Origin: Verrucomicrobiota bacterium
GTDB lineage: Bacteria; Verrucomicrobiota; Kiritimatiellia; SS1-B-03-39; UBA6053
Assembly (NCBI GenBank): GCA_020831635.1
Contig: JAFIGC010000012.1
Coordinates: 1-64,000 of the forward strand
DNA length: 64,000 bases
Direction of reading: 5' to 3'
Part shown: piece by piece, positions 484 through 4,074 of the stretch
Position numbering within the stretch: position 1 is the stretch's first letter
Layout: each line of letters begins with the position of its first letter
Program-made: the position numbers and the translations under genes
The notes under the pieces: generated by a model
The model's database searches: none
Told to the model about the DNA's origin: nothing
What the model saw: the letters and a program-made list of their open reading frames with translations, nothing else

Positions 484-663
484 TATCGTGTAGGGAGCAT
501 GTTCATCAAAGAGAAAGTTTGTATAAGATGAAGGGGCTTCATGAGAGGGATGAGGGCTCTTGGTGGGTCGAGGAGTGGCGGGCGAAGGGAAGACGCGGAT
601 GTACCGTCCGTTCAGATCCCTTTCAGATATTGTGTCGCTACGCGACGCGTTTTACCCATTGGG

Positions 664-801
664 TCATTTGTAAACATTACGCCTGTGTCCGATGGTAACC
701 ACCAAGACGACAAGCTTGTCGTCATGGATTTCGTAGATGATCCGATAGTCGATTCCCGCCAGCTCTTTCTGCGCGGAGCGCAGGATCTGGACCGTGTACA
801 T
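664..801 (-). pseudogene. RelE/ParE-type toxin with internal deletion
   Basis: A 45-residue frame starts MYTVQILRSAQKELA and continues directly into GIDYRIIYEIHDDKLVV and IGHRRNVYK. These are the N-terminal strand/helix and the C-terminal beta-sheet of RelE-family mRNA interferases, which normally run about 85-90 residues. Roughly 40 residues of the middle are missing, with no frame change. The ATG overlaps the antitoxin stop by one base (TGATG), the usual antitoxin-toxin coupling. The catalytic fold is probably broken, so this is called a toxin remnant. A genuinely short peptide that still binds the antitoxin cannot be excluded. Confidence 0.75.
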
Positions 802-1007
802 CACGCCTCGTACTTTTCCCCGATTTCACGGACCGCTTGCGCGAAGGGCAAGATTTCCTCCGGAACGGATTTTGCCTGATCATAGGCGCGAATGTCGTCG
901 AGTTCTTCAAGTTCATCCACGATCTGCGTCCACTCGGTCAGAGTCAAAAGCACCGCTTGGGGTTGTTTTTGATTGTCGATGACAAATTGGGGATGAAGTT
1001 GTACCAT
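801..1007 (-). CDS. RelB/Phd-like antitoxin
   Basis: A 68-residue acidic protein beginning MVQLHPQFVIDNQKQPQAVL. The LHPQ-x-x-x-D start and the LTLTEWTQIVDELEELDDI helix are typical of Phd/YefM-like antitoxins that accompany RelE-type toxins: an N-terminal DNA-binding and dimerising half, then a toxin-wrapping helix. It lies upstream of, and overlaps, the deleted toxin at 664-801. Antitoxins of this class normally repress their own operon. Here the partner looks inactive, so this copy may be a relic or may titrate a toxin encoded elsewhere. Confidence 0.75.
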   Translation of the reverse strand: MVQLHPQFVIDNQKQPQAVLLTLTEWTQIVDELEELDDIRAYDQAKSVPEEILPFAQAVREIGEKYEA

Positions 1008-1382
1008 TTAGTTTGTACCTTGAAGTTGCTTCCACTATGCACCTATCGTCTGATTTGGTCAACCGAATTTTTTGAACAGGAGGACGCGAAAGAAGGGAAG
1101 CGTTACTGTGGCACTCCTGTACCCATTCGCCGCAGAGTTGCAGAACGCTGCGGGCGCGCCGTGAGACGGGAGAGAGCGGATCGCTCCGATCCGCCGGATT
1201 TTCCGGGCGGTTGGGGTAAAAATAGGGAGTTATCGCAATCTATGGCTTGATTTGCGGATGGATTCGGGGTTTCCTGTACATACGGGTTGCATCTGCAACT
1301 CTCTGCTCGGACTGATCCGACCGATCAGTCGGATCAGTCCGAGAAAGAACCCGAGAAAGAAACCAAAGAAAGGAGTTCAACC
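1008..1382. other. Intergenic, repeat-containing
   Basis: No convincing gene. Around 1071-1100 is a degenerate copy of the dispersed motif AACAGgAGgacGCgaAGg, also seen near 23229, 54243 and 54331. A 38-base near-palindrome lies at 1306-1343. GAAAGGAG at 1368-1375 is a good ribosome-binding site for the ATG at 1383. Confidence 0.5.
1306..1343. repeat. GATC-centred palindromic repeat (38 bases)
   Basis: Starts CTCGGACTGATCCGACC and ends GTCGGATCAGTCCGAG. The two halves are inverted copies with a mismatch pair only near the centre. It belongs to the 9-base GATCNGNCN family found at seven other places in the window. Confidence 0.8.
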
Positions 1383-1796: not shown

Positions 1797-2255
1797 ATGA
1801 TGAAAACAGAAAGCAAAACAAAATCCCCCGGTTCCCGTGAGGACCGGGAGTTGCTGGAGAAGCTGTACGATGTGATCAACGGGGAAGAGCGCCCGGTGCT
1901 GCTGGGGCGCGAGGGGGCGCATGTGCAGTTCCCGGAGCCGGTATTCCATCTGCTGACGGAAATCGTTCGCAAGATGCACCGGGGTCAGTCTGTTGTCCTG
2001 CTGCCGGAAAACGAGGAACTGACTACCCAGGCGGCCGCAAATCAGTTGGGGGCCTCCCGTCCGCATGTGGTCAAACTGTTGGAGGAGGGGGCCATGCCTT
2101 ATCACATGGTGGGTTCGCACCGGCGCATCTATCTGCGGGATCTTCTCTCCTATCAGAAACAGCGGGACCGTGACCGCCGGGAAGCGATGGACGCGTTGAA
2201 CGAGGAGCTGCTGGAGGCGGATCTGTATGATTCAGACTACACGGGTGAGGGATGA
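1797..2255 (+). CDS. Excisionase/HTH-type antitoxin of a PIN toxin
   Basis: A 152-residue protein. Residues ~85-120 carry a MerR/excisionase-like helix-turn-helix: ELTTQAAANQLGASRPHVVK followed by LLEEGAMPYHMVGSHRRIY. The acidic C-terminal tail (EELLEADLYDSDYTGEG) would cover the toxin. This layout is known for antitoxins paired with PIN-domain RNases. The next gene starts on its stop (ATGA overlap) and begins like such a PIN toxin. ATGATG gives starts at 1797 or 1800. Likely autoregulated through a palindrome upstream (see 1683-1722). The cognate toxin is truncated, so this may be an orphaned antitoxin. Confidence 0.75.
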   Translation: MMKTESKTKSPGSREDRELLEKLYDVINGEERPVLLGREGAHVQFPEPVFHLLTEIVRKMHRGQSVVLLPENEELTTQAAANQLGASRPHVVKLLEEGAMPYHMVGSHRRIYLRDLLSYQKQRDRDRREAMDALNEELLEADLYDSDYTGEG

Positions 2256-2473
2256 CCGCTGATTTCAAGGTCTGCCTGGATGCCTGCGTGCTGGCGAATC
2301 AGTCCGTTTGCGACCTGTTGCTCCGTTTGGCGGATAAATGGCAACGGGAGGTGAGAGCGCATTTCCCGGAAGACTTGGTGGAAGAATTACGAATTTCCCG
2401 CTTGCGTTTGCCAAGGAAAACAGGCTATTTTTCCTTGGTGAAGACTGGTGAACCAAATGACGCAAACACTTGA
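2252..2473 (+). pseudogene. PIN-domain toxin remnant
   Basis: A 73-residue frame. VCLDACVLAN is the first beta-strand of PIN nucleases, with the first catalytic Asp. It is followed by LLLRLADKWQREVRAHFPED. In full-length relatives (about 180 residues) the LLLRLA helix and the W-x-REV-x-x-x-FPE helix are separated by 35-40 residues, absent here, and the later acidic active-site residues are missing too. After VEE the sequence becomes unrelated and runs into the AbiEi start. The ATG overlaps the antitoxin stop. Interpreted as an inactive toxin formed by internal deletion plus replacement of the C-terminus. Confidence 0.7.
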
Positions 2474-3074
2474 AAACAAAATATCTGCGCGAATATATGG
2501 AAATGGGAGGGGTTGGGCCTTTTCCCAGAAAGATTTCGTGGACCTGGCCAAGACCCCGACCATTCATTGGGCGTTGTATGAACTTGCCCAGGCAGACACG
2601 ATTCGTCGGGTGTTGAGGGGGATTTACGATTACCCTCGCCACAGCAAGCTGCTTGAGCAGACGATGCCGCCGGATCTTCATCAGGTGGCGATGGCGTTGG
2701 CCCGAAAATTCGGTTGGCGGATTCAGCCCGGCGGTGCGGCGGCTTTGAATCTGTTGGATCTTTCCACCCAAGTTCCGGGTCGGATCGAATATCTGTCGGA
2801 TGGGCCGGACCGGGAATACAAGGTGGGCAACACCGGCTTACGGTTCCGTCACCAGGCCTTGAAGGACGCGGGTTTGAAGCACGAGGCCAGCGCGGTGCTG
2901 GTGCAGGGGCTGAAGGAACTGGGGGCGAACGGGGTTACGGAGAAGGTGATCGCACGCATGCGCGACTGGTTGCCGTCCGGGAAGCGGGCGCAGGTGCTGC
3001 GGGACGCCAAGGGGGCCACGGACTGGGTGTACGACGCACTGAAGCAAATCTGCCGGGAAGAGAACGATGGATAA
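2457..3074 (+). CDS. Type IV antitoxin, AbiEi/DUF6088 family
   Basis: About 205 residues. The N-terminal winged helix (GWAFSQKDFVDLAKTPTIHW and LRGIYDYPR) is the hallmark of DUF6088/AbiEi antitoxins. The C-terminal half (YKVGNTGLRFRHQALK) matches the same family. AbiEi binds inverted repeats at its promoter and represses the operon; it neutralises AbiEii without a stable complex. The ATG at 2457 is preferred over GTG at 2448. The stop overlaps the toxin start by eight bases, so the genes are translationally coupled. The 5' end overlaps the PIN remnant, so no separate promoter is visible immediately upstream. Confidence 0.85.
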   Translation: MTQTLENKISARIYGNGRGWAFSQKDFVDLAKTPTIHWALYELAQADTIRRVLRGIYDYPRHSKLLEQTMPPDLHQVAMALARKFGWRIQPGGAAALNLLDLSTQVPGRIEYLSDGPDREYKVGNTGLRFRHQALKDAGLKHEASAVLVQGLKELGANGVTEKVIARMRDWLPSGKRAQVLRDAKGATDWVYDALKQICREENDG

Positions 3075-4074
3075 GGTCGCAAAGCTTTCTCCAGCTAATC
3101 GGCGGGATCTTTTCGAAGCCGCCGCCGCAAAGCGGGGCCTGCATCCGGCGGTGGTGGAAAAAGATTTTTGGGTGTGCTGGTCATTGAAGCGTCTCTTTTC
3201 TCTTCCCGGATTGGCTGAGCATTTGGTGTTTAAGGGAGGGACCGCGCTGGCAAAGGTGGATGGCCTGATCGAACGGTTTTCGGAGGATATCGATTTGGTA
3301 CTGGATTGGGAACTGTTGGGGTACGGGGGCGGCGGGGCCGATCCCTGGGAACCGCAAGCCTCCAACACAAAACTGGACAAGCTGAGCAAGGAAATCAATG
3401 CTCATGCCGGGGAGTATTTGGAACAAACCCTTTGCCCGCTCCTCAATGAGAACATGGGGGATATTCCAGGGCTGCGGGCATCGGTTTCACCCCATGAGCA
3501 ATTGACGATCAATATCCATTATCCTGAAGTTTTCGGGTTGGAGGCTTTGCGCCCGGATGTGAAACTGGAAATCGGTCCGCTGGCATCCCGGGTTCCTTCG
3601 CGGCGGGCGGTGATTCGACCCTATGCGGCGGAGGAATTTCCGAAGGTATTCGACGATCCCGACTGCCACGTAACCGCGATTCGGGGTGAGCGCACCTTTT
3701 GGGAGAAGGCGACCATTTTGCATCGGGAAGCCCACCGTGTCGGCATCACACCCAAGAGGTATTCACGCCACTATTATGACTTGTTTCAAATGAGGTCCCA
3801 TCCGGTGGCTGCTTCGGCCATAAAGGATCTTGATTTACTGGCGGATGTGATACGCTTCAAGCAGCGGTTTTACCGTTCCGGCTGGGCTCTATATGAATTG
3901 GCAAAGCCGGGCAGTTTCCGTCTGCTGCCCACAGAAAAAGGGGGGCGTGAACTGGCGGCGGATTACCGTCGAATGCGCCCTATGTTTTTCTCGGAACCGC
4001 CGCCTTGGGATCGTATCTTAAAGGGGCTTGGACAACTGGAACTGGCGATCAACCAGTTGGAACCGCAACCCTGA
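3067..4074 (+). CDS. Type IV toxin, AbiEii nucleotidyltransferase
   Basis: 335 residues. FKGGTALAKVDGLIERFSED contains the GG-T motif (residues 57-59), followed by the Asp pair D74/D76 in SEDIDLVLDW: the nucleotidyltransferase (DNA-polymerase-beta-like) active site. VVEKDFWVCW near residue 30 and RTFWEKATILHREAH around residue 215 are the other conserved AbiEii motifs. Members use GTP or other NTPs to modify targets such as tRNA acceptor ends, arresting growth in phage-infected cells. All key motifs are present, so this looks like the one intact pair in the island. It is followed 22 bases later by hsdR, with which it is probably co-transcribed. Confidence 0.9.
   Translation: MDKVAKLSPANRRDLFEAAAAKRGLHPAVVEKDFWVCWSLKRLFSLPGLAEHLVFKGGTALAKVDGLIERFSEDIDLVLDWELLGYGGGGADPWEPQASNTKLDKLSKEINAHAGEYLEQTLCPLLNENMGDIPGLRASVSPHEQLTINIHYPEVFGLEALRPDVKLEIGPLASRVPSRRAVIRPYAAEEFPKVFDDPDCHVTAIRGERTFWEKATILHREAHRVGITPKRYSRHYYDLFQMRSHPVAASAIKDLDLLADVIRFKQRFYRSGWALYELAKPGSFRLLPTEKGGRELAADYRRMRPMFFSEPPPWDRILKGLGQLELAINQLEPQP

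Follow-up and report, generated by a model that had tools for sequence, protein, structure and literature searches.

The toxin-antitoxin locus

The window considered here, the whole stretch of DNA that was analysed, comprises bases 1-64,000 of a 67,493-base contig from a genome held in 308 contigs, and a toxin-antitoxin locus lies 664 bases from a contig end. The antitoxin gene (801..1007, minus strand) encodes 68 amino acids and is intact. Its product has weak RelB-like and Phd-YefM matches, under the Pfam cut-offs. The gene precedes and overlaps the toxin gene, as in type II systems, with a GTGA at 801-804 that joins the two frames. The toxin frame (664..804, minus strand) starts with GTG and runs for 46 codons to a TGA; it is a remnant of a RelE/ParE-superfamily toxin with a 114-bp in-frame internal deletion relative to related genes.

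The closest antitoxin relative found, L018, belongs to a Kiritimatiellae MAG (G009) of the same family, and is 68% identical to the antitoxin over its full length. It is followed by an 84-codon toxin in the same gene order and with the same GTGA overlap, in line with the earlier note's claim that start coupling and reading frame are intact. When the 11 genomes of the family (including this one) were searched, DNA matches spanning the module were confined, apart from this genome itself, to G009 (76% over 238 bases) and G003 (70% over 211 bases), so that the comparison is made above strain level. The remaining matches in these genomes are a dispersed repeat. This short repeat lies at about 1058-1110 in the window and is also present in two further genomes of the same genus; within its own genome, there are 43 matches to window positions 560-1110, the majority on query positions 499-551, which is again the dispersed repeat.

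Two further features concern the antitoxin. The heptamer TTGTACC occurs twice (999-1005 and 1013-1019), 14 bases apart and flanking the antitoxin start, and this pair is possibly an operator. Elsewhere in the genome, a solitary chimeric antitoxin (L002; G000:C290:3405-3560) has the C-terminal half of the same antitoxin family and an N-terminal half that resembles another antitoxin type, with no RelE seen downstream.

Extent of the deletion

The remnant corresponds to codons 1-19 and 58-84 of the 84-codon L018 toxin, with 38 codons, or exactly 114 bp, gone. An alignment to RelE orthologues, proposed in the earlier note as a check, was made at the nucleotide level with nine full-length relatives and contains a single 114-base gap, with the flanks and the start overlap kept. 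The same alignment places the deletion junction at 747..748 (minus strand), between the codons GGA ATC GAC and TAT CGG. The position is ambiguous by one codon (GAC, encoding a single D), since a parse into 18 and 28 codons is equally long; this ambiguity would also allow for a short repeat at the junction. The earlier note had described 15 residues joined to about 29, with about 40 missing; the in-frame internal loss stands, and the figures are replaced by 19, 27 and 38. A MAFFT alignment that paired KELAGI of the remnant with KKLTGR was dropped, because it needs two gaps where the nucleotide alignment needs one.

The remnant matches PF05016 (ParE_toxin) with an E-value of 2.4e-6 and 28.5 bits against a cut-off of 23, over profile positions 63-89 only, which is the C-terminal part. 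With TIGR02385 it scores 19.7 bits, under the cut-off of 27.9, and the L018 toxin scores 35.1 bits, over it. Because the start, the frame and both ends are common to the relatives, a chance resemblance is implausible. As in degraded toxin-antitoxin remnants, the toxin frame is disrupted relative to intact homologues (by 114 bp) beside an antitoxin of full length.

It is conceivable that the real gene is full-length and that 114 bp were dropped from the contig, given a 308-contig genome and a locus this close to a contig end. However, the rest of the assembly yielded no intact copy of this toxin subfamily with which the gene could have been collapsed, and the neighbouring PIN-type toxin (vide infra) is degraded as well. 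Assemblers also do not typically drop an exact in-frame segment where the junction has no long repeat, and an assembly error is considered distinctly unlikely.

Fold and conserved residues

The AlphaFold model of the L018 toxin (30-row alignment) has a pLDDT of 90.3 and a pTM of 0.77, and that of the remnant (31-row alignment) shows a helix and a hairpin at a pLDDT of 61.7 and a pTM of 0.32. On these models the remnant does not appear to have a stable fold. The deleted segment (residues 20-57) covers a helix at 20-32 (helix 2) and a strand at 51-55 (beta-2) of the L018 model, and the full RelE fold, with beta-1, two helices and beta-2 to beta-4, is not found in the remnant. In 30 intact relatives, 31 columns are at least 90% conserved, and the deletion takes 16 of these.

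An argument for inactivity from the deletion of catalytic residues was dropped. The HMMER alignment pairs R61 and R81 of Escherichia coli RelE with R59 and R79 in the full-length relative, and both are kept in the remnant; the equivalent of Y87 is probably Y83, by inspection, and is also kept. R52 and R54, which are lost, correspond to K52 and K54. In published work on E. coli RelE (PMC2807027), R61A, R81A and Y87A lowered cleavage, and no significant effect was seen with K52A or K54A. The case for inactivity rests therefore on the loss of fold and not on the loss of key residues.

The same observations could be read in favour of a short RNase that is still toxic, in which the kept R61, R81 and Y87 equivalents act on ribosome-bound mRNA, particularly as K52A and K54A of E. 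coli RelE, at the equivalents of lost positions, had little effect in vitro (PMC2807027). Against this, nearly half of the fold is gone, helix 2 and beta-2 among it, and model confidence is low. Furthermore, no active RelE toxin of such short length is known, and the probability of this reading is close to negligible.

Drift in the retained residues

All 15 of the retained columns conserved at 90% or more have the consensus residue in the remnant, and its profile score on the retained columns is beaten by 12 of the 30 intact relatives in a leave-one-out comparison. Against L018, the NG86 estimates are dN 0.181 and dS 1.483 for the remnant, and dN 0.193 and dS 1.275 for the antitoxin; as dS is saturated, the similar dN values alone are informative. 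The absence of drift would fit equally well with a young deletion and with a peptide that is still constrained. Because the remaining residues are undrifted, the event was probably recent.

Toxin state at related loci

Antitoxin relatives were collected from genome contigs, and the best 80 of 88 confirmed loci were kept. A profile built from 50 near-full-length toxins served to read the downstream toxin frames, and classes were assigned by eye. The toxin frame is intact at 49 of these 80 loci and broken by a frameshift, stop, truncation or deletion at 19 (L024, L026, L027, L030, L034, L041, L046, L048, L049, L051, L053, L056, L060, L062, L066, L072, L077, L089 and L092). No toxin was detectable at seven (L039, L064, L067, L070, L080, L084 and L086), and at five the contig stops too soon for a call (L029, L063, L065, L082 and L085). 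After removal of these last two classes the broken share is 19 of 68, with the caution that the genomes are mostly MAGs and that sequencing error may lie behind a few of the single-base lesions. In-frame internal losses account for two of the 19, with about 8 residues gone at L026 and about 57 at L092. The second of these, in a member of the Sumerlaeota (1456-1721), combines a large in-frame toxin loss, with breakpoints that differ from those of the remnant, with loss of the antitoxin N-terminus.

A phylum-wide search matched the antitoxin profile in 43 of 387 genomes. It yielded 14 close loci (L118-L131), overlapping in part with the 80 above, at which the toxin is intact in 11 and broken in three (L119, L124 and L131). 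The earlier note had suggested that the same locus be checked in relatives; L018 proved to have the full-length toxin of 84 residues, and the short form of the remnant was found neither at the 80 antitoxin-anchored loci (best 80 of 88) nor at the 14 close loci. In viral contigs, a degenerate DNA pattern of the junction gave 25 loci, none RelE-like when their frames were read, and a search for the antitoxin family gave 106 candidate stretches, none of which was confirmed. A search of plasmids with a 700-base DNA region returned no match. With the short peptide as query, 696 plasmid records match, and among the 20 matches listed these are mostly the C-terminal halves of RelE/ParE toxins.

These surveys bear on the suggestion, also made in the earlier note, that the gene is a retained mini-toxin or antitoxin-binding peptide. 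In this reading, the 46-residue peptide, of a helix and the beta-3/beta-4 hairpin, would still bind the antitoxin and tune its stability or operator binding, without RNase activity. The intact frame, start overlap, ends and highly conserved retained columns are all in keeping with this, as is the appearance of a helix and hairpin even in a low-confidence model. However, that model confidence is low, the short form is absent from all of the sets surveyed, including the viral contigs with the junction pattern, and the sole other large in-frame loss, at L092, has different breakpoints and a damaged antitoxin. The suggestion has thus gained no positive support, with no orthologous short form in the sets surveyed and no confident fold, though the retained residues are undrifted, and it is judged very unlikely. 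A related and very improbable version is that an antitoxin-binding shell was kept as a built-in regulator, with the peptide binding the C-terminal tail of the antitoxin, stabilizing it and modulating the promoter without toxicity. A peptide that had been retained for a purpose would illustrate a route from a toxin to a regulator of its own antitoxin.

Other toxins in the genome

A second toxin with an in-frame internal loss lies 1.2 kb from the RelE remnant. It follows an excisionase-type HTH gene, an intact antitoxin (1797-2255, plus strand), a homologue of which adjoins L176. The overlapping 73-codon frame (2252-2473, plus strand) aligns with the beginning of a PIN-domain toxin; relative to L176, its nearest relative, it has a 35-residue in-frame internal gap and then lacks the C-terminal half. 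The second block outscores all but 8 of 10,000 shuffles. Next to it is an AbiEi/AbiEii pair (2448-4074, plus strand), a type IV system that is apparently intact, with near-full profile coverage. On another contig, a further RelE-like toxin (G000:C82:2837-3058; L007, L177) is frameshifted and split between two frames, and adjoins a short intact upstream frame. Together, the PIN remnant and this broken RelE-like gene indicate that toxin decay is not isolated in this genome.

Interpretation

The locus is best explained as a degenerating type II module, in which a decaying toxin lies beside a surviving antitoxin, and the probability of this reading is put at roughly 85%. The ancestor was a full-length 84-codon toxin of the RelE/StbE type, translationally coupled to its antitoxin. 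Comparison with the relatives shows that it was hit by one 114-bp internal deletion, which happened to keep the frame, and the model of the full-length relative shows that this removed helix 2 and strand beta-2. With this segment of the fold gone, the product is probably an unfolded and inactive 46-residue peptide, and the surviving antitoxin may for now serve as a solitary antitoxin or autoregulator.

Decay most likely accounts for the remnant, and calls on nothing beyond what is common both among its relatives and within this 2-kb stretch. The decay that the earlier note had offered as one of two possibilities is supported by the 19 of 68 broken toxins, the nearby PIN remnant and the broken RelE-like gene on contig C82. 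Against decay, the remnant has no further damage, and the equivalents of R61, R81 and probably Y87 remain. As a case of decay, the locus is of low significance, being a further instance in which the toxin goes first and the antitoxin outlasts it; the survey does yield a rough breakage rate, 19 of 68 scorable loci, for one antitoxin-anchored family.

Comparison with known systems

The remnant resembles RelE/StbE type II modules (TIGR02385; PF05016) in its retained ends, gene order and GTGA overlap, and differs from them in lacking 38 of 84 residues and in falling under the TIGR02385 cut-off. Degraded toxin-antitoxin remnants are described as one source of orphan antitoxins in a Klebsiella study (PMC7192599) and in a review (PMC7354431). 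The locus is similar to the degraded modules and orphan antitoxins of those accounts in that the antitoxin is kept and the toxin is no longer functional. Compared with the modules described there, the toxin remnant here is still in frame and still coupled to its antitoxin, which would place it at an early stage of degradation.
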